Source of the DNA: a virus
DNA length: 64,000 bases
Direction: 5' to 3' (one strand)
IMG/VR virus record: IMGVR_UViG_3300021197_001789
Location: 1-64,000 of that record
The position numbers and the translations under genes were made by a program. This document shows, piece after piece, positions 2,819 through 62,794 of this stretch (position 1 is the stretch's first letter; every line of letters starts with the position of its first letter). The notes beneath the pieces are model-generated. The model saw only the letters and a list, made by a program, of their open reading frames with translations, had not been told where the DNA came from and did no database searches.

Positions 2819-2977
2819 CTAACCGATTAAATCTTCGATTGTCATTTGCTCATCACAGCTAAGCGCATCCCACTCGCTTGTGGTTGTGGCTTGGCTGAAT
2901 GTTAAGCCGTCAAAAAGTTGCTTTGCCGCTTGGATGCGGAGGTCGTGTGCTAGTGCACTTGTGTTGATTTTGTCCAT
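2819..2977 (-). CDS. Hypothetical small protein with CDEQ motif (52 aa)
   Basis: The 52-residue frame starts MDKINTSALAHDLRIQ and contains WDALSCDEQMTIEDL near its end, resembling the downstream neighbour. The ATG follows AAAATCCAACATCATG, the leader style of this block. Immediately upstream on the transcript is a long RNA hairpin (3062-3014), so this would be the first gene after a structured RNA segment. Confidence 0.55.
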   Translation of the reverse strand: MDKINTSALAHDLRIQAAKQLFDGLTFSQATTTSEWDALSCDEQMTIEDLIG

Positions 2978-3013
2978 GATGTTGGATTTTATGGTTTTTG
3001 ATGTTACTAAGAT

Positions 3014-3062
3014 GGTTTGTATTATATATCTTCATAAATGAAGAGATATATAATACTAAACC
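3014..3062 (-). other. Long stem-loop in leftward transcript
   Basis: Arms at 3014-3035 and 3038-3062 pair over 22 bp with a one-base and a two-base bulge and a two-base loop. The stem is very A+T rich (TATTATATAT core) and closed at the base by GGTTT/AAACC. It lies between a tRNA-like element and the gene at 2977-2819. There is no trailing U tract, so it is more likely an RNA-processing or stability element than a simple terminator. Confidence 0.75.
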
Positions 3063-3078
3063 TTCTAAGCGGATTAGA

Positions 3079-3123
3079 ACATAGTGGGGAATCGAACCCC
3101 AATCGCACCCTATGTGCCTATGC
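3079..3123 (-). ncRNA. Minimal tRNA-like element (acceptor + T arm)
   Basis: The minus strand reads a canonical T arm, GGGG-TTCGATT-CCCC, closed by an acceptor-like stem. The 3' half CTATGT (3084-3079) can pair with GCATAG (3123-3118), leaving a 4-bp arm GCAC-ATAGG-GTGC between, or with ACATAG (3115-3110), giving a bare mini-helix. There is no room for normal D and anticodon arms, so it cannot be an ordinary decoding tRNA. It sits 15 bases after the stop of the 3139-3558 gene and just before the long hairpin. Confidence 0.5.
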
Positions 3124-3138
3124 TGGTGGGCTGTGTGC

Positions 3139-3558
3139 CTAGAACGGAGGCTCAAGGCTTTCTTCGAACTTAGCAACGGCAACCGCTTCCGCATCTTGCA
3201 TACGCTTGGTGCGAAGTTTAGCCATAGCAACCTCAACTGTCTCTCCTTCGGAGAGCGTGTACACCTCCCTACGTGGGGCTTTGTAGCTTTCGACAACCTC
3301 AGGCTTCAGGTACGTAGTGCATACGTTAGCCCTAGCTTGTTGCCGTTCTAACCTTTGGTTACGGCTCTTCGGCCTACCTGCAGATGCCTTACGTGCTAAG
3401 GGGTTGGACTTAGTTGGCTTAGCCTCAACCTCTTCGAGGTTAGAGATGCTATCCGTTAACTGCTTTAGCAGTTTTAACGCTTGAGCCTTACGCTCAGGAG
3501 TAGCCATGTATTTGGCTTGGTTTACTGCCTTACGGCAGTCTTTGAAATCAATATTCAT
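3139..3558 (-). CDS. Basic protein, paralogue of 3587-3877 (139 aa)
   Basis: The first ~45 residues (core DCRKAVNQAKYMATPERKA, then LKLLKQLT) are nearly identical to the N-terminus of the next upstream gene, showing a tandem duplication. The following section is basic (GRPKSRNQRLERQQARA) and the C-terminal ~60 residues are unrelated to the paralogue. The charge suggests nucleic-acid binding. No known family is recognised. The DNA of this gene holds several perfect hairpins at places matching those in the paralogue. It lies next to the divergent control region and is probably among the first leftward genes expressed. Confidence 0.7.
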   Translation of the reverse strand: MNIDFKDCRKAVNQAKYMATPERKAQALKLLKQLTDSISNLEEVEAKPTKSNPLARKASAGRPKSRNQRLERQQARANVCTTYLKPEVVESYKAPRREVYTLSEGETVEVAMAKLRTKRMQDAEAVAVAKFEESLEPPF

Positions 3559-3586
3559 CTTCGATGGTTTTTAGATGTGTAACGTA

Positions 3587-3877
3587 CTATGCTGAAAGCA
3601 TAGCTAAAAGTTCAGCCTTAGTTAACTTCGTTAAGTCAACCGCTTTAGCCTTCTTCGAAGGCTTTACCTTCGCTTCCGCTATGGCTTTCTTCGAAAGAGG
3701 CTTTGCCTTAGCCTTCGGCTTCGCTTTAGCCTTCGGCTTAACCTCTTTGAGGTTAGTAACGGCTTCGGTTAACTGCTTTAGCAGTTTGAGTGCATTTGCC
3801 TTACGCTCTGCGGTGGGCATGTACTTTGCTTGGTTCACTGCCTTACGGCAGTCTTTGAGGTTTATGTCTGTTGACAT
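3587..3877 (-). CDS. Lys/Ala-rich, histone H1-like tailed protein (96 aa)
   Basis: The N-terminus (~40 residues, LKDCRKAVNQAKYMPTAERK) matches the neighbour at 3139-3558. The rest is a lysine-alanine-proline tail (KPKAKAKPKAKAKP) ending in a short helical segment TKLTKAELLAMLSA, reminiscent of SAP/HeH-like helices. This composition is typical of histone H1-like DNA-binding proteins. As the first gene left of the control region it may coat or bend DNA or regulate early transcription. The family and function are inferences from composition only. Confidence 0.7.
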   Translation of the reverse strand: MSTDINLKDCRKAVNQAKYMPTAERKANALKLLKQLTEAVTNLKEVKPKAKAKPKAKAKPLSKKAIAEAKVKPSKKAKAVDLTKLTKAELLAMLSA

Positions 3878-3922
3878 GGGTATATGGTTTTATTCTCAGC
3901 GACATTGCTGAGTTGATGCCGA

Positions 3923-3957
3923 CAAAGGTAAGGCTAACATTTGCTTACTTCGACAAA
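3923..3957 (-). promoter_or_regulatory. Leftward promoter of the left early block, with dyad
   Basis: The minus strand has TTTG (3957-3954) and TACCTTTG (3930-3923), separated by 23 bases, a match to the TAnnTTTG consensus with slightly long spacing. Transcription would start near 3916, so the perfect dyad CTCAGC-n6-GCTGAG (3895-3912) lies in the leader before the ATG at 3877, a likely operator or RNA hairpin. Confidence 0.5.
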
Positions 3958-4765
3958 ACTGACCAACTGATTCCACGCGCCTTTTACCGAAGGTAAAACA
4001 CGCACGAAGAATCCGCGCATGTGTGTGCGCTGTGCGATCACGCACGTGCCTACGCGAGAGAGCCATGTATTTTGTATTGATAATTCAGGTTTTGTATTTG
4101 TATTGTTTTCCCAATTAATACAAACAACAACGAGGTAATTGTCAATAGTAAATGAGGTCGCATGTATGTAAGCGTATTAGAGTATTACTCTAACTCGTAG
4201 GTGGTAGGGGTGTGATTGTCACACACTTACGCAGAACTGCACTCGTACGTACGTATTCCCAACCGATGTAAAGTAAGGCTTTAAGTGACTACGGATAACT
4301 ACTTGCCTATCAGATAGTTGACGTCAAAACTTTGGGCTCACTTGCTCACGATACGCTGACGGGGGGGTGCGCCAAATCGCGTTTCCGTGCGCAGATGTAC
4401 GCGTTCACATATACATATAATCCCCCATCTAAACATTTCTCAGCAAATTTTCAACCATTTACATTTTTTCAGCCAAATTTTTCCAGTGGCGCGGATCTTT
4501 TTTACGATGGTTAGGCCACTTCTCTTACCCTAAAGCATTGAGAGGCGGTTAATTACGACTCTTTGCTTAAAGTTTTACTTTACTATTGACTTTTCAAATT
4601 TTTTGTTATAACTTTGCGATATATCTTTCAAAAACCAAGCTTCTCTATATATTTTTTGTGTGTACACTTAGAAGCATTAGAGAAGATTAAGATGTTATAT
4701 ACGGGATAGCTATGCCTGCGATGAATCGGTCCCCCCTTAGGTATATTTTAGAAGGTTAAAATAGT

Positions 4766-5491: not shown

Positions 5492-6796
5492 ATGGCATTA
5501 TTCGACTTAAACTCTAGATATACTAAATCTATGGAACACGGTGGCTCTTATGAAAGAGATGCCTCAATAGGTGGGTATAACAGGAAAGAACTCCGCGGTC
5601 TGAACAGACAGGCTAGGCGTGGAACGCTCACTCAAAGAGAAAGAGCAAGACTAAAGTATCTTACAGATGAACGTCGAGGAAGGCGTAAAAGAGGACTGCT
5701 TTCGGGGCTAGGTGGGGCAGCCGCCACACTCGGTGCTCTAGCAGCATCTGGTAAGTTGGGTGGTGGTGATGGAGAAGGCGGTTCTGGTATAATGGATATG
5801 ATTAAAGGCAGGTTAGCGAAAGGTAAAGGCAACCTACAAGATAAGTTAGAGCTTGCTAGAGATAAGAAGTGGGCAAAACAACAGGGTGTTGACCCTAGAG
5901 AATATAATGATGAGGAAAAAAAAGCAGTTGAAAAAGTGCCTGAGAGAGATGAGTTTGGAAGAACTTTTGCTGAACAGATGAGAGAAGAAGGAGAGGGATA
6001 TACATCAGAGAAAATGAGAATCGCAGATGAACTTGATCGTAATGTAGATTTTAATAGAGCAGGCAGTCAAAGAGGTAGAGATGGAAATGATCAAAGAGCA
6101 GCAGATATAGCTAACCAGGCGGACTTTCCTATGGACATAAATCCAATTTATCAAGATTTTAGTGGTGAACTAAGTGAGGAGTTAGGTGAGGGTGATCTAT
6201 ATGAACAGACTTTGGCAAGAACTCAAGCAAGAGACAGGTCAATCGCAGCGGGTGAAAGTGCTCAAAGACCCGTAAATCCATACTTGGCACCTGAGGGTAG
6301 ATCTGACGCTCCTGGTTCTCACGTTGAACAAGCCTTACTTGAAATGGCTAGGGATGAGGCTTCCAGAGTGTCTAGTGAAAATCCGCTACCAACAGGTATA
6401 ACATCGACCCCAAGAAATACTGGTTCTGAAGTAACAGGACTAAAGTCTAGAAGTGTTGATTTAGGATCAGATTTTCCAGCAGAGATACCTGCAAAACAAG
6501 CAACACGAGGGTCTAATAGACCTAACGTACGAAAGCTTTTTAATGCTTTAAATAGATCTAAGCCGTCCGAGATTGATGTAGATCCAGAAGGTATGGCAAG
6601 TGATCAATCTCCAGGCGCAGCTCAGACTTTATTAGATGCATGGAACGATAAACGCCGAGAATTAGGGCTAGAGCCTGCTATTCAGTTGACAACAGAAATG
6701 ATAGAAGAAACAGAAGGTATGGACCCAAGAAATAGAGCTACCCCACAGTTAATGACTAGACGCCCACCAAGCCAAATACTCAATAGATATAACTAA
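5492..6796 (+). CDS. Probable virion protein with hydrophobic segment (434 aa)
   Basis: The N-terminus contains MEHGGSYERD, the GG motif shared by several late proteins. A very basic stretch (residues ~30-70: RRGTLTQRERARLKY, DERRGRRKRG) precedes a small-residue hydrophobic segment (GLGGAAATLGALAASG, ~73-88) and a glycine-rich linker. The remaining ~330 residues are acidic and probably disordered. Such a layout fits a DNA-contacting or membrane-inserting internal virion protein. No family is recognised. It ends four bases before the next ATG region, overlapping it by one base (TAATG). Confidence 0.65.
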   Translation: MALFDLNSRYTKSMEHGGSYERDASIGGYNRKELRGLNRQARRGTLTQRERARLKYLTDERRGRRKRGLLSGLGGAAATLGALAASGKLGGGDGEGGSGIMDMIKGRLAKGKGNLQDKLELARDKKWAKQQGVDPREYNDEEKKAVEKVPERDEFGRTFAEQMREEGEGYTSEKMRIADELDRNVDFNRAGSQRGRDGNDQRAADIANQADFPMDINPIYQDFSGELSEELGEGDLYEQTLARTQARDRSIAAGESAQRPVNPYLAPEGRSDAPGSHVEQALLEMARDEASRVSSENPLPTGITSTPRNTGSEVTGLKSRSVDLGSDFPAEIPAKQATRGSNRPNVRKLFNALNRSKPSEIDVDPEGMASDQSPGAAQTLLDAWNDKRRELGLEPAIQLTTEMIEETEGMDPRNRATPQLMTRRPPSQILNRYN

Positions 6797-8805: not shown

Positions 8806-8933
8806 ACAAATTTTACTTTAACCCAAGAAGAAAAAGAAGAGACCACGCTAAAGAAGCAGAGAAAACCCGACTAAATAAAATAAAGAATGAAGCTAGAAGT
8901 AATAAGATTCAACAAAGGGAAGGATTCGACTAA
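8802..8933 (+). CDS. Possible small basic protein (43 aa)
   Basis: A TTG start overlaps the previous TGA as TTGA and opens a 43-residue, very basic frame (NKFYFNPRRKRRDHAKEAEK). It overlaps the following gene by 47 bases. The coupling and strong charge make it plausible, but the rare start and the overlap leave doubt. Confidence 0.35.
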   Translation: MNKFYFNPRRKRRDHAKEAEKTRLNKIKNEARSNKIQQREGFD

Positions 8934-9402
8934 CGGAATACTATTCGATATAACAGATGATAAAAGAAAATTTTTATGCTATACTCTCGAAGATGAGAGC
9001 CGCACCGAAAAGGTTGCTGGAGAAACTTGCATACCTGAAGGAGAGTACCGCCTCGGTTTTAGAACTGAAGGTGGCTTCGATGCCAAGTACGCTCACAGGT
9101 TCGCTGATATACATATGGGGATGCTGGAAGTCCTTGATGTCCCTAATTTTAAATATATCCTTATTCATTGTGGTAACACAGATGAGGATACTGCGGGCTG
9201 TTTACTACTGGGTGATACGCAAGAAAACAACAACATAAAAGAAAACGGATTTATCGGGAAAAGCACCCACGCGTACTACAGGGTATACCAAGAAATCGCG
9301 GAAGCCGTAGAAAAAGAAGAAGTAACTATAGTGTATAGAGACTTCGCAAAATGTTTAATCCTCTCACAGGCGGATGTGAGTGAATTTTTTGGACAATGTT
9401 AG
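8887..9402 (+). CDS. DUF5675-like protein, candidate lysis enzyme (171 aa)
   Basis: The sequence matches what I recall of the DUF5675 family of phages and Bacteroidetes: an N-terminal beta region with CYTLEDE, then IPEGEYRL, and a conserved IHCGNTDEDTAGCLLLG around residues 97-113. The His...Thr-x-Gly-Cys arrangement resembles the active-site signature of YkuD-type L,D-transpeptidases (HG...SxGC), which suggests a peptidoglycan-acting enzyme. No other endolysin is obvious in the window, so this may be the murein enzyme, though it lies far from the holin. The enzymatic role is inference. Confidence 0.65.
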   Translation: MKLEVIRFNKGKDSTNGILFDITDDKRKFLCYTLEDESRTEKVAGETCIPEGEYRLGFRTEGGFDAKYAHRFADIHMGMLEVLDVPNFKYILIHCGNTDEDTAGCLLLGDTQENNNIKENGFIGKSTHAYYRVYQEIAEAVEKEEVTIVYRDFAKCLILSQADVSEFFGQC

Positions 9403-9932
9403 GACTAGGCACATCTTTATACACTCAATCATTTGTGGAAGGTGTACCTCAAGCGGCAATATTGGCTGCTTCCGTGGTTGATGCTGATGACGAAACGATT
9501 TTATATAACTTTATAATTAATGATTCCGCAACAGTGGCGGCTATAATAGATGGAAAAACTTTAGGAACGGGAAACTTAATGAACGGAACGGTAGAACTTA
9601 CCGTAACAAATACCACCGCTGATCCAGATAAAACTGGGGTGAGAACCTTTAATATTTTTCAGTATCAGAACGGTAACACCAATTTTTACTTTCTTTCTGG
9701 GGCAACTAGCAATATTACTATTTCGGATACTGCATTAGGAGGTGAGTATTATGCTATAGACTTAACAACTGACGGAACAGGTAGCGATGCTTTTTTAACT
9801 GCAGGAGGAGATAATGCGGATTTAGATGCTAGCGGAGACGCAGAAGCGTACAGTTTTTCTGCGGTGTTGAAAATAGACGGTTTTCAAGATTCTTCAGCCC
9901 TTGCTTTCCCCACATCAATAGATGCCGCATAA
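9396..9932 (+). CDS. Beta-rich structural protein (178 aa)
   Basis: An Asp/Thr/Ser-rich beta protein overlapping the previous gene by seven bases. It reads as repeated short strands with Gly-Asn-Asp turns and no enzymatic motif. The position between the lysis candidate and a LamG-like protein suggests a fibre or decoration component. Family not recognised. Confidence 0.6.
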   Translation: MLGLGTSLYTQSFVEGVPQAAILAASVVDADDETILYNFIINDSATVAAIIDGKTLGTGNLMNGTVELTVTNTTADPDKTGVRTFNIFQYQNGNTNFYFLSGATSNITISDTALGGEYYAIDLTTDGTGSDAFLTAGGDNADLDASGDAEAYSFSAVLKIDGFQDSSALAFPTSIDAA

Positions 9933-9954
9933 GAATTTATAAAAAACAAAAACA

Positions 9955-10671
9955 ATGCCAGCAAAAATAAGATATTCAGCTAACGATCCAGGTATAACAG
10001 CAGACTCAGCTATTTCATCGAAAGCTTCAAAAGGAACCGTAGGCAGTAGAACCTTCGATCAAAGCACTTCGGCTAAAAAACCTACACACAAGGATATGGG
10101 GTCTAACGCTAAGCTTTTTGGAGGTATAACTACTACGTCTTTTGACGGGGGGGATTATTTAGACCTAAGTACAGCGGAAGAATTTGCCGTATCCGAGGCG
10201 TGGCTTTGGGTTTTTGCTTTTGTAGATCTAGATACCACCACGGATTGTATCCTAGCCTACTCGTCCGACAACGGAGGGTATATAGGTATAGAGGCAGGAG
10301 GGAACGGTATAGTGTGGAAAAACAACTCCTCACGAGCTAGCGAAACCACAATAGCTACCAACAATACAGACAACAGCTCTATATCGTATAGCTTTGGTAC
10401 CGACGTAGAAGTTTTAATAGTAAGCACAGCCGCAGGAAATAACTTGATAAACTTTTACAATATAGACGGTGCTTTAATAGCTACCAATGGCTCCGCCTCT
10501 GGAGCTTGCACCACATGGAACCTAGATAGGATAGGGGCAAACTCTTCTACTTCAACGGAGTTTGTTGGGGAGTTAATAGACGTAAGATTATATAATGGTA
10601 GCGGGATAGCATCACTTTCCGCTTCACAGTTTCAGGCTATAGGGAATAGGTACAAGCAATACAAAAATTAA
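9955..10671 (+). CDS. LamG/concanavalin-like fibre protein (238 aa)
   Basis: The central region (FDGGDYLDL, WLWVFAFVDLDTTTDCILAY, and later YNGSGIASLSASQFQAIGNRY) follows the pattern of laminin-G/concanavalin-like domains: the FDGxDYL strand, alternating hydrophobic strands, and a final strand with a helix that sets list positions. Such domains in phages bind glycans or decorate fibres. A second LamG-like protein is encoded at 26049-27353. The gene ends overlapping a convergent minus-strand gene by four bases. Confidence 0.65.
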   Translation: MPAKIRYSANDPGITADSAISSKASKGTVGSRTFDQSTSAKKPTHKDMGSNAKLFGGITTTSFDGGDYLDLSTAEEFAVSEAWLWVFAFVDLDTTTDCILAYSSDNGGYIGIEAGGNGIVWKNNSSRASETTIATNNTDNSSISYSFGTDVEVLIVSTAAGNNLINFYNIDGALIATNGSASGACTTWNLDRIGANSSTSTEFVGELIDVRLYNGSGIASLSASQFQAIGNRYKQYKN

Positions 10672-11090
10672 CTTTCTAATTCTCGGTAAACTCTTTGCAC
10701 AAGAAGTCTTGCTTTCTGCGTTAAAGCGTATCTCACCCTATAGTTAAATTTAGTTTCGTCTCTAAAGAGATGATCTTCATATGTATTAGAGGGGGTTAGT
10801 TTATCAAAGTGTTTATATATATACCCTTTATTAGCTAAGGGATATATAAATCGGTTCTTGGTATTGTTCTTATTCATCTCCATATCGGTGGAGGCAAAAT
10901 CTATGGTAAAGAACTGAAGGTCATATCCCCACAGCAAGAACTCTACCTCACTAAAGGATAGCTCAGTAGTTTTATTTATCCTCTTCTTAACTTGTTTTAT
11001 CCGCTTAAGGTTATTTCTTAATATATATTTCTTATCTTGCAGTGCGAAGTCTCTGAAAAGACGCGTTTTTGGAACTCTACTTTTAGGCAT
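10668..11090 (-). CDS. Winged-helix-like regulator candidate (140 aa)
   Basis: This is the only minus-strand gene inside the rightward block. The basic N-terminus is followed by SFSEVEFLLWGYDLQ, then a helix ending in a basic turn (NRFIYPLANKGYIYKHFD) and a final long helix (TQKARLLVQRVYRELE). The order of helix, recognition-type helix, wing and dimer helix recalls MarR-type winged helices. Its ATG is only four bases from the ATG of the divergent 11095 gene, so its promoter must lie in that coding sequence or elsewhere. A regulatory role is an inference. Confidence 0.6.
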   Translation of the reverse strand: MPKSRVPKTRLFRDFALQDKKYILRNNLKRIKQVKKRINKTTELSFSEVEFLLWGYDLQFFTIDFASTDMEMNKNNTKNRFIYPLANKGYIYKHFDKLTPSNTYEDHLFRDETKFNYRVRYALTQKARLLVQRVYRELES

Positions 11091-11094
11091 TGAA

Positions 11095-11418
11095 ATGAAT
11101 TTATTACGTAAAGATATGGAAGAACAGGCATTTTTCTTAGAGATTCAACGTTTATCTATGGAGATGGATGAAATTATATACAAGCACGGGATGCAGGATA
11201 GGGTAGTTTCGATAATGGTAACGGGGCTTACAGATGAGGATTTTATGGGGAACTCAAGGTTACAGGCTATATATAGCTACAGCTTAGATTCGAGAGAAGA
11301 ATTAGATAGTATATTAGACTTTATAAATAACACCTGGGATGATAGTGATACAAAAAGCAACACAGGATATGACGGTATAGACGACCTACTAGACGGAACA
11401 GGAATAGAATTAGAATAA
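11095..11418 (+). CDS. Hypothetical acidic protein (107 aa)
   Basis: Acidic 107-residue protein beginning MNLLRKDMEEQAFFLEIQR with a helical first half and a strongly acidic end (DDSDTKSNTGYDGIDDLL). It starts four bases from the divergent regulator-like gene. It is the first of a run of small genes leading to the terminase. No family recognised. Confidence 0.65.
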   Translation: MNLLRKDMEEQAFFLEIQRLSMEMDEIIYKHGMQDRVVSIMVTGLTDEDFMGNSRLQAIYSYSLDSREELDSILDFINNTWDDSDTKSNTGYDGIDDLLDGTGIELE

Positions 11419-11419
11419 A

Positions 11420-11659
11420 ATGGAAGGACTTATTAGAAAAATTGTGGTCGGAAGAGACCCTAAAGACGGTATGGCTTACTATATTGGGATGAGAGCAGGG
11501 GCAGGCAAGGTAAGCACAATAGTACAGGATGATCGACATCTGTCTAAATATGGGAAGAATAGATACCTTGTATATATGCAAGACGAAGAGGGTGCCCAGA
11601 CTCTATGGAAAGCTATAGACGGGATGCCCTGTATGTTAGAATTTAATTGTAACTTTTAG
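11420..11659 (+). CDS. Hypothetical small protein (79 aa)
   Basis: A 79-residue protein one base after the previous stop. It is beta-rich with an opening IRKIVVGRDPKDGMAYYIG and a final EFNCNF. Such short proteins commonly sit in this position in Bacteroidetes phages, but I cannot name a family. It probably shares a transcript with the co-chaperonin-like and terminase genes. Confidence 0.6.
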   Translation: MEGLIRKIVVGRDPKDGMAYYIGMRAGAGKVSTIVQDDRHLSKYGKNRYLVYMQDEEGAQTLWKAIDGMPCMLEFNCNF

Positions 11660-11662
11660 ATT

Positions 11663-11839
11663 ATGAGCGAAAGCAAAGGACTAGGTGATTCCGTAGAGAA
11701 ACTAACGCGGCGCCTAAAAATTAAACAACTACTTGATGCCCGTAAAAAAAGAACAGGGAAAGACTGCGGGTGTTCTAAGCGTAGAGATAAATTAAATAAA
11801 ATGTTCCCATACAAAACATCTAAAAATGAAGACGTTTAA
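11663..11839 (+). CDS. Small conserved Cys-containing protein (58 aa)
   Basis: The 58-residue frame starts MSESKGLGDSVEKLTRRLKI and contains KDCGCSKRRDKLNKMFPYK. The GLGDSVEK...DCGC..R...LN..FPY pattern resembles a short protein I recall as widespread in Bacteroidetes phages and prophages, usually unnamed and close to head genes. CxC plus neighbouring basic residues could bind metal or nucleic acid. It overlaps the next gene by 14 bases. Confidence 0.65.
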   Translation: MSESKGLGDSVEKLTRRLKIKQLLDARKKRTGKDCGCSKRRDKLNKMFPYKTSKNEDV

Positions 11840-12422
11840 TCTATTCGTCGTTAAATTAGAAAACAGGCTTAAAGATACTATTACCTCAGAAAGTGGATTT
11901 GAGTTGTACCTAGATGCTAAGTTTGACGACTTCAATAACAGAACGACAGAAGGACCCGTAGTATGTGTGCCGTTTAAATACGACACAGGTGTAGAGGTAG
12001 GAGATACATTATACTTCCATCATCTAGTAGTCCTGGGCGGGGATAATAACGGGCAGATATTTACCGAGGAAGACAACACGTATATAGTAAACTACGATCC
12101 TGACCACGCAATTTCTAATCAGGCCATAGCATATAAGAGCCAGAAGGACGGGAAGATACGGTGCCTAACGGGATGGTGTTTATTGAAATCAGTGGAGCAG
12201 GAGGAACTGACTCTTCAGTCCGACCTCATAGAGATAGTAGATCTAACAGAGAAACTCCCAACCAAAGCAGAGGTAGTATATACATGTAAAGAAGCCGATG
12301 AGATAGGTGTTCTACCTGGAGACGTAGTGGGGTTTAAACAAAATAGAGATTATCGTATAACTATAGACGGGGAGGAATACTACCGCACCCGTGCAGAAGA
12401 TTTAATGTATGTCGAAATATAA
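11826..12422 (+). CDS. Double GroES-like co-chaperonin (198 aa)
   Basis: Two successive beta-barrel segments are visible. One is around residues 25-75 (GPVVCVPFKYDTGVEVGD, TLYFHHLVVLG), the other around residues 135-195 (VVYTCKEADEIGVLPGDVV, then DYRITIDGEEYYRTRAEDL). The GD-x-V/L-x-F strand after a turn, and the closing 'YYRTRAEDLMYVE' strand, resemble phage GroES-like co-chaperonins. At 198 residues it is about twice the size of GroES (~97), consistent with a tandem double domain. It would help the host GroEL fold capsid proteins. The gene sits just before terminase and portal. The family call is by pattern only. Confidence 0.55.
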   Translation: MKTFNLFVVKLENRLKDTITSESGFELYLDAKFDDFNNRTTEGPVVCVPFKYDTGVEVGDTLYFHHLVVLGGDNNGQIFTEEDNTYIVNYDPDHAISNQAIAYKSQKDGKIRCLTGWCLLKSVEQEELTLQSDLIEIVDLTEKLPTKAEVVYTCKEADEIGVLPGDVVGFKQNRDYRITIDGEEYYRTRAEDLMYVEI

Positions 12423-53405: not shown

Positions 53406-53831
53406 ATGACACACTTACTATTTAAGGACATGCAGCGCAGTCCATTTGACATTCTTGTAAAGAATTTTTTTGACAATGAGTCAACTTTTGACAAACCTAC
53501 ACGACAGGTTGTCACACATCCAATAGACGTTTACGAAACTAAAGAAGGGCTAACCTTTGAGGTAGCTTGTACAGGTCTGGATAAAAACGATGTAGATATA
53601 AATGTAGAGGGAGATACCTTAAGGGTATCACACGAAACTGAAACTAAAGAATCAGACGGGCTACACCACACATATCATTCAGGCATAAGGCGTAGCAGCT
53701 TTAATCTAGGCTGGAGGATATCACGGAGATTTGATCTCACCAATATAAAGGCGGAAATGAAGAACGGACTGCTTACGCTGTCCGTTCCGTACTCCGAAGA
53801 ATCTAAACCCAAATCAATTAAGATAAAATAA
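53406..53831 (+). CDS. Small heat shock protein Hsp20 (141 aa)
   Basis: Holdase chaperone that keeps proteins from aggregating. The alpha-crystallin domain is plain: HPIDVYETKEGLTFEVACT (residues ~37-55), GLDKNDVDINVEGDTLRVS, a loop, RRFDLTNIKAEMKNGLLTL and the conserved NGLLTLSVP. The C-terminal tail ends KSIKIK, the IxI motif that docks to neighbouring subunits. Length is normal. Cyanophages also carry hsp20 genes, probably to protect virion proteins. Its end overlaps a convergent gene by 14 bases. Confidence 0.88.
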   Translation: MTHLLFKDMQRSPFDILVKNFFDNESTFDKPTRQVVTHPIDVYETKEGLTFEVACTGLDKNDVDINVEGDTLRVSHETETKESDGLHHTYHSGIRRSSFNLGWRISRRFDLTNIKAEMKNGLLTLSVPYSEESKPKSIKIK

Positions 53832-54277: not shown

Positions 54278-56170
54278 TCATCGTACAGGGCAGGCACCAG
54301 AATCACAGTCAGCAATCTCCACATCCTCCATCTTTATGTCCTGCAGGGATGTAATAGGTGTGCACCGCTTCTTCATACTCTTGTAAGTTTTCTTATCTAT
54401 TTCCTCTAGTGGGGCTTGATCAAATCCATGATCGTTATGCAACAAGAATGATACGGACTTAACATTTTCGTAATTCTCTTTTAGCCACGCCTTAATTGAA
54501 TCCAATTCATCCTTCTTATAGTAAACCGTCACCGACACGGAGTTATCGCTCCATTCCTTCTGTAAACGCTTTATAACCTCTAATTGATCCACTGCTGACA
54601 TGTCGCCCGCAAACATAGTTCCTTTAGGGAAGCTGCATGGGAAGCTTACAACTACAGTTGAATGATCCTCAGTACCATCAAAGTTTCTTACATACTCTAT
54701 GTCAAACCCACTGTTTCTGCACACGTTGACCAGTTCGCTATCTGCAGACATTCTAATTCTCCTAATGTAATATTCGGAGTATCCAGGGTGTGCTCCAGGT
54801 GTAACGCCAGCAAGTAGACTGAGCGTTCCAGAGGGTTTGACTGTAGTAAGTTTAATAGATGTGGGTAATCCTGTAGATCTGGAGTATTCTTTGTCATATT
54901 CACGAAGGTAAATATAGCAATTTTCTAGCCAACTTCTTTGCTCCTCTGTTGCCTGCAAATACCCAGTTACTCCGATCCCCATCCTCATGTTCTTATGAAC
55001 AATCTCCTCTGTTTCCTTGACCGAACACTTAATAGCAAGACTATGCTTGTTAATACGGTACAGATATTTAGCAACCTTTTTTAGTTCAACCTCTGATTCA
55101 ATGTTAGGTAGGTAAATCTCTGCTAGACAGCATGTTTCGTATGGCGCTAACGATTGTTCAGCACATGGATTATAACCCATCACATCTGGATCAGGGTATT
55201 CTGTTTCGCCCGTTCTTCCCATACGTCTAGAGGACTCAAGGTTAATCAAACCGTACGGCTCACCGTTTCCTTTGTACCCCTCCCAAAACTCATCAGGAAG
55301 ATCTGCCACATCGTCACACACAACAGAGTTATTTGACATAGCTCTCCAGTTAGGTATACCGCCTAAGTCCCAACGCTTAGCACGTAGGTACTCAAGGTCA
55401 TCGTGATCCCCTAGTGCTATCTGTGCGGATCTGCGTACATTACCAGCCACTACAATCTTACCAATGATGTTCATAACATCCAGACAATCAACGGGTTTCA
55501 GCCTTTTATTAAAGCGTTTGTTTAAGATAGAGTTGATTTCTTGCATACCCCATATTAGATCTTGACTACCTGAGGCGGTTCCTCCAAATCCTTTTATAGG
55601 TGAGCCTGCTGGCCTTATAAGGTGTGTAGCGTATGTAAACCCCTCACCTGTAACAAAGCTTGCTTCAAGCACACGGCGTAAGAGCTCTGTCCACCCTTCA
55701 CGCGAGTCAGGTACAATAAAGTCAGCACCGTTATCGTTAACATTTTCTATGTCAACACGACTCTTTATCTTAGGTAGCTGATATACATGCTCTCTCTGTA
55801 TGTTGTATCCGACACCACTTCCAAGCATAAGCATCTCAAATGCCCATGTAAACGGACGGATAGGATCGTCTACTACGGTAAACGCACAATTCTGTAAAGA
55901 AGGGAGACCTAGTTTATCTACCGTCTTTGTTCCTAACTGCCATAAAAACCTACCAGCCACCGTACCCTTCAGGTTCATCATGAAGTTTTTGATCTCCTTT
56001 TGATTGGATGTATTGAAGTTACAACCTAGCTGATCGTTGCACGCATTTATTACGCGGTCCACTGTATCTTCCCACTCTTCCGTTCCCCCTTCTATTGGGC
56101 GTGAGTATGTTCTTTTATAGGTTGCGTATCCCACCTCACCCCAAGGGGTGTTAGTTGTTTTGTCGTTCAT
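54278..56170 (-). CDS. nrdJ: Adenosylcobalamin-dependent ribonucleotide reductase (class II) (630 aa)
   Basis: Makes deoxyribonucleotides for phage DNA synthesis and needs B12 instead of iron or oxygen. Recognisable are LPSLQNCAFTVVDDPIRPFTW (N-terminal half), SGVGYNIQREH, the active-site stretch GYNPCAEQSLAPYETCCLAE (around residues 330-350, Cys and Glu of the NPCAE motif), and TVKPSGTLSLLAGVTPGAHP (substrate/cobalamin loop). The C-terminal ADCDSGACPVR carries a redox cysteine pair. It fits the monomeric RTPR-type NrdJ. Met26 is chosen as the start because the longer frame would overlap the neighbour. Confidence 0.85.
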   Translation of the reverse strand: MNDKTTNTPWGEVGYATYKRTYSRPIEGGTEEWEDTVDRVINACNDQLGCNFNTSNQKEIKNFMMNLKGTVAGRFLWQLGTKTVDKLGLPSLQNCAFTVVDDPIRPFTWAFEMLMLGSGVGYNIQREHVYQLPKIKSRVDIENVNDNGADFIVPDSREGWTELLRRVLEASFVTGEGFTYATHLIRPAGSPIKGFGGTASGSQDLIWGMQEINSILNKRFNKRLKPVDCLDVMNIIGKIVVAGNVRRSAQIALGDHDDLEYLRAKRWDLGGIPNWRAMSNNSVVCDDVADLPDEFWEGYKGNGEPYGLINLESSRRMGRTGETEYPDPDVMGYNPCAEQSLAPYETCCLAEIYLPNIESEVELKKVAKYLYRINKHSLAIKCSVKETEEIVHKNMRMGIGVTGYLQATEEQRSWLENCYIYLREYDKEYSRSTGLPTSIKLTTVKPSGTLSLLAGVTPGAHPGYSEYYIRRIRMSADSELVNVCRNSGFDIEYVRNFDGTEDHSTVVVSFPCSFPKGTMFAGDMSAVDQLEVIKRLQKEWSDNSVSVTVYYKKDELDSIKAWLKENYENVKSVSFLLHNDHGFDQAPLEEIDKKTYKSMKKRCTPITSLQDIKMEDVEIADCDSGACPVR

Positions 56171-56201
56171 TTTTGTTAAAATTTTTGTTAGAAAAGGGCT
56201 A

Positions 56202-56717
56202 CTAAGATAGCTCAATTTTCTTCCGTGTAAGATCCTGTGGATCAATATAAGTACCTAAATATTCTATCACTTTATAGCTCTTTAACTCCTGTAAATCATG
56301 TAGAGCCAACATGGTTATTTTATCTTTTCTATTTCTTCTCTGATATATCCTTCGGTAAGCATCTTGTTTATTTGAAACGTAGTTTTCAAACTCTACATTC
56401 TTTAAACACCACTGAAGCAGTTCCTTACGTTCAACACGTATATAACCGCCTACCTCTGGCATCTCAAAAGCTATCCACTTTGCAGCACCTAATATCCATC
56501 CAGGCTTACCGTGCACGTTACGCAGTTCCACCCATATCTCATCGGGGAGGTTGTTACCTTTTACATCCACCCCATCGGCACCATGCCAAAAGTCTACGTG
56601 AAGGTGTATGTCCTCATCTCTTGATGACTTCCTAGCATCTAAACAAGCTCTGTCATATCTGGTCGCGGAAACACCGCCATCCTTCCAGGATTGCTTACGT
56701 CTTTCTTTATTCACCAT
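56202..56717 (-). CDS. PD-(D/E)XK-like nuclease candidate (171 aa)
   Basis: Contains DFWHGADGVDVKGN, then EIWVELRNVHGKPGWILGA and a helical C-terminus. The D...VDVKG and E-I-W-V-E-L strands resemble the core of PD-(D/E)XK nucleases (acidic residue, then (D/E)xK). A basic N-terminus (NKERRKQSWKDGG) and tail (DAYRRIYQRRNRKDK) could bind DNA. It lies between the RNR and endonuclease I genes, so DNA processing is plausible. Catalytic spacing is not certain. Confidence 0.5.
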   Translation of the reverse strand: MVNKERRKQSWKDGGVSATRYDRACLDARKSSRDEDIHLHVDFWHGADGVDVKGNNLPDEIWVELRNVHGKPGWILGAAKWIAFEMPEVGGYIRVERKELLQWCLKNVEFENYVSNKQDAYRRIYQRRNRKDKITMLALHDLQELKSYKVIEYLGTYIDPQDLTRKKIELS

Positions 56718-57443: not shown

Positions 57444-59243
57444 TTATAATAATATTTCAGAGAAATTTATTGCCTCTTGCTTATCGCCTTGGAAATGAAT
57501 AGGTTGGAATAATGACTCCCTCGTGTCCCAGGAATTAAATCCTGTGTGTGATAGGTTCATATGTAGTTTATATGGCTGGTCTAAAGGCGTTGGTTGACCG
57601 CCTGTCTCTACTTCTCTGACTTTCCTAACGTGGAACTCACTGAGTTTACGTATGTTATGGTCAGGTGCTTGAACCTTTCGGTGAATAGTGATGAAGCAAT
57701 CCGCTCTGTTTACGAACTTTCCGCCACCCTCTGTATCCTCAGCATATGGAGCAACGGGTAAACCATCATCACCTTTACGTCTTTGAGCCTCTGTAACGGC
57801 ATGCATATTTAACCATACTGCTACGTTGTTTGCCGTAGAGAACGTTAAGAACTCACTGGCTGCCTCGTAGTGGTAGTCATGTACCCCTATATTACTGCCC
57901 TTCATATCTAGCTTCAGGCTGTTGTATGGGTCTACGAAAATAGCATCTACATGTTGCTGCCTCATGACCTTCTCCATAAAGACTATGATGTCGCTGTAAC
58001 TATAAACCTGATTATTATTGATGATAGTGAAGTGTTCTTGTACCCACTTATAGGCCTGTCTGCGTTGTGCATACGTCATGTCGGCAACCTTACGATCAGA
58101 CGCAAATTGCATGAGCTGCATCTTTACCGAGGCAGTCCTATTCTCTGATGAGTATATAACCCACTTCCACTTGTGCCGTATAACTGAGTTAGCTATTAGG
58201 TACAATGCTGTTGTAGTTTTACCTACGTTACTGTGTCCGTTCATGATGACAAACTCCTTCTTGTATCTGAAATACTCGTCTAACTGCGTGTCACCTGTAT
58301 CCAATCCTATCTCAATCTTACCTTGAGAGAAGTCGTCTATCCATCTAAAGTCCTCATCGTCAGAGGATATGAATGACATATCACCATCGTTAATAAGCAT
58401 CTCACGCTTAGCTTGTTTCTCCTCATCTATAATCTCTCGTATAGGTGCGTCCTTACCTACCTGGATCATATCAACGATAGTAGCCTTAGCTTGTTCGTCA
58501 GAATCTATATCTCTCTTAGATATCTCACGGAACAATATGCGAACCGCCTCCTCTTCCTCCATTCTTCCTGCGGATATATACCCACCACATAAACGTGCAG
58601 CTTTTACTAAAGCTCTGTGCTTGTCCCCATCCTCAGCTGACCTTATAATACGTGCAGCTAAGTTTAGCTTCATATAGTCCGTGTAGTCGTATGCTTCGTT
58701 AGTCGGTGTCTGCGCCTCAGCGTGTTCGCTAGAGAATGCCCCAAACTTCTTCCACTCATCCTTGATTATTATGTCAGGATCGTGTGACTCAAAGCATGCT
58801 CGTGATTCGTTTACACCCGACTCATCCACCTCTAGGGTGTACTGTTTGTCAAAGTATGTTATTAGCGCACGAAAATGATCTCTGTGCCTCTCAGGGTTGG
58901 TTATCTGAACAAGCGCCTTAATACCATCCCCACTCGGTGAGACCCAGCAAGAATGTACATAGTCATCCGTAGCCAGAGCCGTCTTCGTTGCCTCAACATC
59001 AACGTGATCGAAGTCCAGAACAATAAATCCTGAATGTTCAAATAGAGCGTCATCAGCCCTTGACGAAAATTCACCACTGAAGCATACCACAGGTAGCCTC
59101 CTCTTCTTGTCCTTGTCTCCCTCACGTACTTGCGCTATGAGAGAACCAGACTTCCCCGACTGTATCCTCGTCAAGGCTGTCTCTATCTGTATGTGATGCG
59201 GTGCCTCCTTCTCGAATACGTTTTTGAATATCGTTACTTTCAT
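57444..59243 (-). CDS. Primase-helicase with BT4734/VirE-type N-terminus (599 aa)
   Basis: Replication enzyme. The N-terminus (VTIFKNVFEKEAPHHIQIET, then RLPVVCFSGEFSSRADD and SGFIVLDFDHVDVEATK) matches the BT4734-like VirE_N domain of Bacteroidetes replication proteins. A long middle linker follows, then a RecA-like helicase with Walker A GHSNVGKTT (~residue 335), a sensor-like YSSENRTASVKM, Walker B DAIFVDPYNSL, and the C-terminal VNRADCFITIHRK. The start ATG at 59243 overlaps the previous gene by 122 bases; the ATG at 59255 is also possible. Confidence 0.8.
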   Translation of the reverse strand: MKVTIFKNVFEKEAPHHIQIETALTRIQSGKSGSLIAQVREGDKDKKRRLPVVCFSGEFSSRADDALFEHSGFIVLDFDHVDVEATKTALATDDYVHSCWVSPSGDGIKALVQITNPERHRDHFRALITYFDKQYTLEVDESGVNESRACFESHDPDIIIKDEWKKFGAFSSEHAEAQTPTNEAYDYTDYMKLNLAARIIRSAEDGDKHRALVKAARLCGGYISAGRMEEEEAVRILFREISKRDIDSDEQAKATIVDMIQVGKDAPIREIIDEEKQAKREMLINDGDMSFISSDDEDFRWIDDFSQGKIEIGLDTGDTQLDEYFRYKKEFVIMNGHSNVGKTTTALYLIANSVIRHKWKWVIYSSENRTASVKMQLMQFASDRKVADMTYAQRRQAYKWVQEHFTIINNNQVYSYSDIIVFMEKVMRQQHVDAIFVDPYNSLKLDMKGSNIGVHDYHYEAASEFLTFSTANNVAVWLNMHAVTEAQRRKGDDGLPVAPYAEDTEGGGKFVNRADCFITIHRKVQAPDHNIRKLSEFHVRKVREVETGGQPTPLDQPYKLHMNLSHTGFNSWDTRESLFQPIHFQGDKQEAINFSEILL

Positions 59244-59496
59244 TTTCTTTTGCAATGATTAGCAGGATTATATACCCTGCGATGTCTATTAATGTGTCTT
59301 CTGTGTCTTCAACTAAACCTGCGTTAGCTATTCTTTTTAGCTTATCGTCAAGTCTAATCTTTATGCCTGACGATGCATTAGCGGAAGAAAAAACGCCCAG
59401 AGGACTCAAAGCTGAGTCCCCATAGGCGTCGTTCTTTCTAACTAACAGATCTTCAAGCTGACGACATTTTAATTTTATGTTGTCTTTTGTGTTCAT
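59122..59496 (-). CDS. DUF1599/Nmad1-like nucleotide protein (124 aa)
   Basis: The first ~85 residues (CRQLEDLLVRKNDAYGDSA ... GIKIRLDDKLKRIANAGLV ... EDTLIDIAGYIILLIIAKE) match a helical NTP-pyrophosphohydrolase-like pattern known as DUF1599/Nmad1: R-K-N-x-x-Y-G-D-S, R-x-x-D-K-L-x-R and ED-T-x-x-D-x-A-x-Y. The acidic residues bind metal in MazG-type enzymes. The last ~40 residues are an extension read over the primase-helicase start, an unusually long overlap. A role in the nucleotide pool or modified bases is inferred. Confidence 0.65.
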   Translation of the reverse strand: MNTKDNIKLKCRQLEDLLVRKNDAYGDSALSPLGVFSSANASSGIKIRLDDKLKRIANAGLVEDTEDTLIDIAGYIILLIIAKENESNDIQKRIREGGTASHTDRDSLDEDTVGEVWFSHSAST

Positions 59497-62263: not shown

Positions 62264-62333
62264 GCTTCATCCTTTGGTGTTCTAAATAGCACCCAAGAAT
62301 TGTAGCTACTATAACTATAATTATTATTGACAT
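62253..62333 (-). CDS. Single-TM micropeptide (26 aa)
   Basis: The 26-codon frame reads MSIIIIVIVATILGCYLEHQ and then RMKHDN: one hydrophobic span at the very N-terminus and a basic C-terminal tail, so N-out topology is likely. Its start overlaps the upstream gene's end by 10 bases. Function unknown; a frame this short may be fortuitous. Confidence 0.45.
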   Translation of the reverse strand: MSIIIIVIVATILGCYLEHQRMKHDN

Positions 62334-62794
62334 TGTATTTTATATATTGTTTCGTTTTTATTTGCTACGCTGTGCTTCTCACCTATGTAGTAGTTCCAAT
62401 AGGCTTTGACACTACATGCATCTTTGTACCTATCTGGCATACATTGTGGAGGGTTTGTAAAAAACCCATCAGGCATACCATGAGGAGGTAGAAGCAGTGC
62501 TTCTTTGCATTTAGTTATTGTCAAATGTACCTTACCATATCGCCTTGTGTACTCTTCACCTAAAGCAATCATATGGTTATACAGCCAATAGTATTGAGGC
62601 TTATTAGCCCTAGCCCACACAGTAGACGGATGGTTGTAGTGAGCCTTCTTGTATGGCACATTATCTCCGTTATCATAGTGGTGGTGCGCTGTGCATAGCA
62701 TCTGTGCTGACTCAAGGATCATCTTGACCACGTGCTTATCATACTGATATTCAGCAGCTTTCTGTGGGTTTTTGTGTAAGTAAAATATATTCAT
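62324..62794 (-). CDS. Conserved phage protein with KHVVKM motif (156 aa)
   Basis: Begins MNIFYLHKNPQKAAEYQYD then KHVVKMILESAQMLCTAHH, and later HYNHPSTVWARANKPQYYW and PPQCMPDRYKDACSVKAYW. The pattern (K-H-V-V-K-M, then H-P-S-x-V-W-x-R, then P-P-x-x-M-P-D) is one I recall from many unrelated phages. Such proteins are sometimes labelled as DNA-glycosylase-like, but I cannot confirm this. Several His and Asp residues could be catalytic. Location in the DNA-metabolism block fits a DNA role. Confidence 0.6.
   Translation of the reverse strand: MNIFYLHKNPQKAAEYQYDKHVVKMILESAQMLCTAHHHYDNGDNVPYKKAHYNHPSTVWARANKPQYYWLYNHMIALGEEYTRRYGKVHLTITKCKEALLLPPHGMPDGFFTNPPQCMPDRYKDACSVKAYWNYYIGEKHSVANKNETIYKIQCQ

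Follow-up and report, generated by a model that had tools for sequence, protein, structure and literature searches.

A one-sided array of short hairpins, probably selected as DNA, beside a single-copy element in a phage family

Introduction

Around the divergent control region of an uncultivated phage genome, and across the two short genes that lie next to it, small perfect inverted repeats with loops of three or four bases crowd together. Are these hairpins a by-product of coding, do they act as RNA or as DNA, and what would read them? An initial annotation of the sequence described a dense cluster at 3241-4224 and proposed three interpretations: promoters for a virion RNA polymerase (RNAP) as in phage N4, origin structures, or RNA control elements. 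Taken together, these interpretations are partly supported. Origin structures are the best candidate of the three, as the array extends to one side from a single-copy conserved element. Here, we describe the array, its homologues and its distribution, and we argue that it is probably a DNA-level hairpin array under selection.

Genomic setting

The record IMGVR_UViG_3300021197_001789 is a 65.7-kb IMG/VR virus, and the window (the whole stretch analysed, 64,000 nucleotides) covers most of that length. Its terminase is closest to that of Manatee Spring podovirus (48% identity), with the Flavobacterium elemo phages at ~40% and Cellulophaga phages more distant. Judged by these relatives, the host is likely one of the Flavobacteriia. 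Structural genes run rightward from 4778, and genes A and B are the first leftward genes past the divergent control region (Table 1). Neither gene has a match in Pfam, PHROG or NCBIfam, neither was found in INPHARED or by a pattern scan of GTDB genomes, and the predicted structure of the gene A product (pTM 0.29) is too poor for a structure search. Motifs equivalent to the promoter-like TACCTTTG, of the form TTGAC-N-TAnnTTTG, are present in five relatives (G001, G028, G029, G037 and L035); the spacing of the window's own copy fails this strict pattern.

Elsewhere in the window, a primase-helicase fusion (57444-59255, minus strand) joins a BT4734-like/PrimPol-like N-terminus, matched by the Pfam model BT4734-like_N and, below cut-off, by a CRISPR-associated PrimPol model, to a DnaB C-terminus. 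The set 62324-62794 (-), 54278-56245 (-) and 53406-53831 (+) includes Pfam matches to a pyrimidine-dimer glycosylase and a B12-dependent ribonucleotide reductase, together with a small heat-shock-like protein recognised by eye only. Within 8887-12422 (+), a weak NCBIfam match at 11826-12422 marks a GroES-like protein, which fits the presence of GroES/GroEL genes in the related elemo and Cellulophaga phages.

Downstream of gene A, a tRNA-like mini-element (3078-3124, minus strand) consists of an acceptor-like stem, a short GCAC-ATAGG-GTGC hairpin and a canonical T-arm GGGGTTCGATTCCCC. It has no anticodon or D arm and was missed by ARAGORN. Relatives carry it as well (L001 about 5755-5800, L029 about 5528-5612, L035 5365-5415), with a stem that differs while its pairing is kept, and it is possibly an RNase P-type processing site. 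The long AT-rich hairpin that closes the zone resembles a terminator or an RNase III site; its position is kept and its stem is different in L033, L035 and L037.

Table 1. Coordinates of the conserved element, genes, promoter-like motif and hairpins in the window (hairpins as arm-loop-arm)
Feature	Position	Strand	Remarks
Conserved single-copy element AGAAATGTTTAGATGGGGGATTATAT	4415-4440	-	hairpin zone begins here; candidate origin/control site
GTGTGA-TTG-TCACAC	4210-4224		upstream zone
TTAGAGT-ATT-ACTCTAA	4177-4193		covarying stems at matching place in relatives: CTAGACT/AGTCTAG, CTAAAGT/ACTTTAG
TTTTACC-GAA-GGTAAAA	3982-3998		upstream zone; identical stem in L001, L003, L029, L035
Promoter-like motif TACCTTTG	3923-3930	-	Bacteroidota-type TAnnTTTG, ~50 nt upstream of gene B; putative, from its sequence
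CTCAGC-GACATT-GCTGAG	3895-3912	-	6-nt loop; presumed 5' leader of gene B
Gene B	3587-3877	-	96 aa; Lys/Ala/Pro-rich; duplicated N-terminal helical domain; bears hairpins
ACTGCC-TTAC-GGCAGT	3837-3852		gene B; pairs in 21/21 distinct sequences; both-side C-G to T-A switch in 4
AACTGC-TTTA-GCAGTT	3771-3786		gene B; relatives compensate: AACTCC/GGAGTT, AGTTGC/GCAACT
TAACCTC-TTT-GAGGTTA	3739-3755		gene B
CTTTC-TTC-GAAAG	3685-3697		gene B
AGCCTTC-TTC-GAAGGCT	3647-3663		gene B
TTAAC-TTC-GTTAA	3622-3634		gene B
CTATGCT-GAA-AGCATAG	3587-3603		gene B end
Gene A	3139-3558	-	139 aa; N-terminal domain paralogous to gene B, separate C-terminal part; bears hairpins
ACTGCC-TTAC-GGCAGT	3524-3539		gene A
AACTGC-TTTA-GCAGTT	3458-3473		gene A
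AACCTC-TTC-GAGGTT	3427-3441		gene A
TAACC-TTT-GGTTA	3349-3361		gene A; CAACC/GGTTG in L003, L029
CTCTCC-TTC-GGAGAG	3241-3255		gene A, codons of LSEGE; retained in most relatives
Long AT-rich hairpin, ~20 bp	3011-3062		closes zone downstream of gene A; at matching place in all A/B relatives

Hairpin excess in the window

The cluster is real, and bigger than had been described. Within 3241-4224, eight dyads have a stem of at least 6 bp and a 3-nt loop, the number given in the initial annotation, where 0.25 are expected and where the maximum across 2000 Markov shuffles was 4; the chance rate quoted there, about one per 4 kb for a 6-bp stem with a 3-base loop, is right. Four further dyads have a 4-nt loop (0.28 expected), giving 12 against 0.52 for loops of 3-4 nt combined, and stems of at least 7 bp with a 3-nt loop number five against 0.07. 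The nine 5-7 bp stems with 3-base loops of the original count become 11 upon recounting at stems of at least 5 bp (1.01 expected), so that the excess stands with a different total. Similarly, 3241-4224 holds as the dense part and falls short as limits, for the feature runs from the element at 4440-4415 to ~3.0 kb. Hairpins common to both paralogues (AACCTC/GAGGTT, AACTGC/GCAGTT and ACTGCC/GGCAGT) sit where they had been placed (Table 1).

A scan of the remaining genome, which had been suggested as a check, returned only 26 dyads with a stem of at least 6 bp and a 3-nt loop in the ~62.5 kb outside 2900-4420, which is chance level; with loops of 3-4 nt, the background outside this interval is 0.75/kb. 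When synonymous codons were permuted in every ORF of the window, the A/B pair stood out, its count of stems of at least 6 bp being reached in 0 of 200 shuffles, and nearly all remaining genes had the expected number of hairpins. Gene B permuted in its own frame carries four hairpins against 0.78 expected (p 0.004).

Pairing is kept in homologues, irrespective of gene and strand

Homologues of genes A and B were collected from IMG/VR, ten loci first and more later. Across 22 such genes, 88 hairpins with stems of at least 6 bp and loops of 3-4 nt were counted, against 12 expected from codon permutation. Stems at matching sites differ on both sides at once, as in the series AACTGC/GCAGTT, AACTCC/GGAGTT and AGTTGC/GCAACT, in ACTGCC/GGCAGT and ATTGCC/GGCAAT, and in CGACTC/GAGTCG and AGACTC/GAGTCT. 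When 21 distinct sequences are aligned over 120 ungapped columns, 97.5% of cells are paired; 19 cells are changed on both sides, against 4.4 in shuffles and a value never reached in 500 of them, and shifting the partner by 1-3 columns lowers pairing to 22-44%. Between homologous hairpins, 142 pairs have changed on both sides and are still Watson-Crick. Silent sites are conserved at 0.86 inside the arms and 0.53 outside. The earlier suggestion that the coding sequence is bent to keep the hairpins is thus borne out by the codon-permutation excess, the conserved silent arm sites and the compensatory changes. Two results had been named as refuting the observed cluster: an equal dyad density in other regions, and homologues that keep the protein and lose the pairing. 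Neither applies, as density in the remaining window is that of chance and compensatory changes preserve the pairing.

The hairpins are not bound to these two genes. In G033 and G035 the zone is occupied by an unrelated protein family, and codon permutation again reveals an excess (10 against 0.46 and 8 against 0.33), with hairpins that mostly differ between the two homologous zone genes. In G034 the zone gene lies on the opposite strand, runs toward the element and is not Lys-rich, and it holds eight hairpins against 0.69. A dependence of the array on the Lys-rich A/B protein is broken by these three genomes: the array follows the DNA site, not the gene. Zone genes in hairpin-poor phages have 0 or 1 hairpins.

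A conserved element and a one-sided zone

The zone begins at an element that lies where both transcription arms diverge and in which a run of GGGG leads into an AT-rich stretch. Its form across the family is AGAAATGTTTAGGGTGGGGATTATATATATA, then about 20 bp, then CCGAAACG; comparison of the upstream regions gives a shared AGAAATGT..(T)GGGGATTATATATA, about 50 bp, then CCGAAACG. It occurs once in the window, where 0 copies are expected, and once in each of 42 relatives.

A pattern scan for the element matched 19 contigs. Where a contig extends far enough downstream, 4-19 hairpins/kb follow the element in most cases, against 0.5-1/kb elsewhere; in L042, L047 and L054 the element is present with almost no hairpins after it. 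A looser scan gave 72 stretches, or 56 distinct ones when pooled with the earlier loci. In 19 hairpin-rich loci, whose choice by downstream density exaggerates the contrast, the density is 0-1.8/kb upstream of the element and, downstream, 8.7/kb at 0-200, 20/kb at its peak between +600 and +800, and at baseline near 2 kb. This choice accounts neither for how abruptly the hairpins set in at the element nor for the existence of an empty class; the first 19 pattern matches were unselected and already divided into dense and empty loci. Each zone holds ~13 to 26 hairpins. The zone also takes in ~500 bp ahead of the TTGAC-N-TAnnTTTG motif, which several relatives have in front of the first gene.

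Three observations stand beside this profile. Roughly 19 of 42 element-bearing contigs (G000-G050), some rich and some poor in hairpins, stop less than ~2 kb past the element on its downstream side, which may reflect an assembly break, a variable region or a physical end. In a hairpin-poor group (L061, L078 and relatives), an antisense gene in the region from +0 to +2000 is surrounded by long noncoding stretches in which purines and pyrimidines alternate (ACGCACACACGCG). Finally, a 10.75-bp period of hairpin centres, considered as helical phasing, was found mainly in zones with A/B genes; it is absent from the independent zones G033, G034, G035 and G004, and is therefore treated as shared ancestry.

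Hairpin grammar: DNA rather than RNA

When 24 zones are pooled, perfect stems of 6 bp number 293 where 13.9 are expected, and those of 7 bp number 154 where 3.5 are expected. For 3-nt loops, exact stem lengths of 5, 6, 7, 8 and 9 bp occur 58, 81, 88, 17 and 3 times (19.5, 4.8, 0.9, 0.2 and 0.1 expected). A 7-bp stem continues to 8 bp with a frequency of 0.23, about the chance rate, and the functional stem is therefore taken to be 6-7 bp. Loops of 3-4 nt are enriched, those of 5 nt weakly, and those of 6 nt or more not at all. In a non-redundant set of 164 triloop hairpins, C-G closes the stem in 108 (66%), T-A in 48, A-T in 6 and G-C in 2, and the loop is GNA in 44 and TNC in 43 (together 53%, against 12% in the background), a preference that is symmetric between strands. 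Apart from the closing pair, stem composition is nearly free; stems within one genome are unrelated, except for the A/B-paralogue duplicates, and inspection revealed no flanking sequence common to the hairpins. A GC-dependent thermodynamic tuning of stem length was rejected, as there is no trend across 5 to 7 bp.

An RNA helix is expected to tolerate G.U pairs. Among near-perfect stems in the 24 zones, a single internal G.U is seen 23 times (20 expected) and a single A.C 28 times (29 expected). In the A/B genes both one-off mismatches are below chance (G.U 4 against 9.8, A.C 5 against 12.4), and changes on one side between homologous hairpins gave 69 G.U and 77 A.C. Because G.U is no better tolerated than A.C, and because the loop rule is strand-symmetric, the array points to DNA hairpins or cruciforms; RNAs of both strands rank as less likely.

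Distribution and evolution

All 27 genomes tested share at least 64% terminase identity with the window, and so represent one phage family. Of the 27 relatives scored, nine have the element and no array, so the function of the element, whatever it may be, does not require the hairpins. Phages with the element and few or no hairpins are scattered through the terminase tree, on which the hairpin-rich state needs seven changes, at least five of them forced by well-supported branches. Sister phages differ: G016 is poor while G028 and G037 are rich, and G034 is rich while G021 and G022 are poor. The zone may move by recombination. The primase-helicase is found in hairpin-rich and hairpin-poor phages and thus cannot explain the difference between them. 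Among the cultured relatives scanned, there is no array in elemoF (first 50 kb), Manatee Spring podovirus, Maribacter Panino, Cellulophaga phi19:3 and phi38:1, or Tenacibaculum Gundel_1.

Interpretation and alternative explanations

We tentatively read the array as a one-sided field of fixed-size hairpins that starts from a candidate origin or early-control element and is read by a factor recognising DNA shape. Along ~1.5-2 kb on one side of this single-copy element, selection would favour perfect inverted repeats with a 6-7 bp stem, a 3-4 nt loop, a C-G or T-A closing pair and preferably a GNA-type loop, leaving the sequence otherwise free. Upon negative supercoiling or melting, the dyads may extrude from both strands, forming hairpins or cruciforms. 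The extruded hairpins could subsequently serve as structure marks for the shape-recognising factor, most plausibly in replication initiation; candidate readers are the phage's primase-helicase of the PrimPol-DnaB type or a nucleoprotein built beside the origin. The phage DNA may then carry a kind of structural code, in which sequence-unrelated hairpins evolve by compensation through genes of either strand and are read by a shape-reading machine, a notion that we hold just as tentatively.

An alternative without function, which we consider unlikely, is that template switching during replication repeatedly perfects short quasi-palindromes, for instance near an origin with exposed single strands. 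Such a mutational footprint would account for strict Watson-Crick pairing free of G.U intermediates, for changes on both sides of one arm pair, for confinement to one side of one element and for independence of the gene. However, stems end sharply at 7 bp where hairpin copying should leave a broad tail, and copying alone would not give the C-G closing pair with the GNA/TNC loop rule. Moreover, ACTGCC/GGCAGT is intact in every distinct sequence aligned, and sister phages with the same element have no array.

Control at the RNA level is distinctly unlikely. Hairpins would then function in early transcripts, through translation, stability, antitermination or binding by the Lys-rich protein; the first early genes are hairpin-dense, most gene-B homologues have a start-codon hairpin ATGTC-nnnn-GACAT, and the long hairpin and the tRNA-like element come next downstream. 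The RNA control elements of the initial annotation are nevertheless disfavoured by the intolerance of G.U, by GNA and TNC loops being equally common, by a zone that does not follow the coding strand (the gene in G034 lies on the other one) and by the many hairpins in the ~500 bp upstream of the early promoter motif. Rfam at gathering thresholds matched only a tRNA-Tyr in the window and no other RNA family.

There is a small chance that the array is a counter-defence or recombination device, in which labile cruciforms bait or block a host sensor of DNA structure, or mark a recombination site. The repeated presence/absence switches in the terminase tree speak for such a device, as do the many contigs that stop soon after the element, like a variable region, although contig ends may be assembly artefacts. 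We regard N4-type hairpin promoters serving a virion-packaged RNAP as very improbable: the hairpin geometry, the closing-pair and loop rule and the position in the early region recall N4, but no virion RNAP (vRNAP) was matched in the large virion proteins, and dozens of hairpins with unrelated stems replace a conserved sequence. That the hairpins merely follow from Lys/Ala/Pro-rich low-complexity coding (AAG CCG AAG GCT yielding AGCC-GAA-GGCT) can be dismissed: some short dyads in KPKA repeats do arise so, but the codon shuffles of A/B and unrelated zone genes refute it, and hairpins also occupy noncoding DNA and genes without a Lys-rich product, as in G034.

Should our preferred reading of a selected DNA array hold, DNA secondary structure would itself be under selection over more than 1 kb, regardless of sequence, gene or coding strand, and this selection would be strong enough to shape the choice of codons. 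Silent-site conservation in phage early genes should then be interpreted with caution, as it may stem from DNA structure and not from RNA or codon usage. The hairpin-rich and hairpin-free sister phages would provide many natural replicates.

Comparison with known systems

In the N4 vRNAP promoters, as in the array, the stem is short with a 3-base loop, there is a preference for a C-G closing pair and for a 5' G and a 3' A in the loop, and the identity of the stem is partly free as long as it pairs. In N4, the closing pair and these loop bases are needed for supercoil-driven extrusion, and the early promoters share a conserved sequence from -17 to +1 (PMC4496689). The array agrees with the N4 geometry of 5-7 bp stems and 3-base loops, as its stems peak at 6-7 bp with loops of 3 (and 4) nt, and the N4 closing pair and loop are strongly favoured in it, not universal. 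It lacks the shared -17 to +1 sequence, its stems being unrelated. N4 has three promoters with a common sequence and a giant vRNAP, whereas each zone of the array holds many sequence-unrelated hairpins, which flank both sides of the promoter motif and cover genes of either strand. Searched against Pfam and PHROGs, the virion proteins of 2909 and 2471 aa did not match a vRNAP; PDB sequences gave no RNAP match for the 2909-aa protein, and the large virion ORFs, scanned with a simple regular expression, showed no RNAP-type motif. A very distant polymerase could escape such searches.

At oriV of plasmid RSF1010, the ssiA and ssiB hairpins are read by the RepB' primase (PMC4434180). These DNA hairpins lie beside an origin and their reader is an archaeo-eukaryotic-type primase; the phage, with hairpins next to a candidate origin, encodes a PrimPol/BT4734-like primase-helicase, and by analogy with RepB', a role of the hairpins for the phage enzyme is plausible. 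In RSF1010 each strand carries a single ssi that bears a specific 5' single-stranded tail; the array departs from this arrangement, with ~13 to 26 hairpins per zone and no common flank.

REP/BIME and other dispersed palindromic repeats likewise place many small palindromes in a genome, but they are copies of one sequence family, whereas the array consists of unrelated stems that run over coding sequence. Structured coding RNAs and ribosome-slowing mRNA hairpins share with the array hairpins within genes that are kept through silent-site selection. The array differs from them in that it is strictly Watson-Crick, reaches DNA upstream of the early promoter motif and is independent of the coding strand.

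We know of no described system with this architecture, and a search of the open-access literature found no description of such a hairpin array, which is not proof of absence. In its working the array resembles N4 or ssi hairpins many times over, yet the features that define N4 promoters (shared sequence, vRNAP) and ssi sites (one per strand) were not found in it. With it, the formation and use of short cruciforms and single-stranded DNA hairpins in cells would become testable beyond a few N4 promoters and plasmid priming sites.
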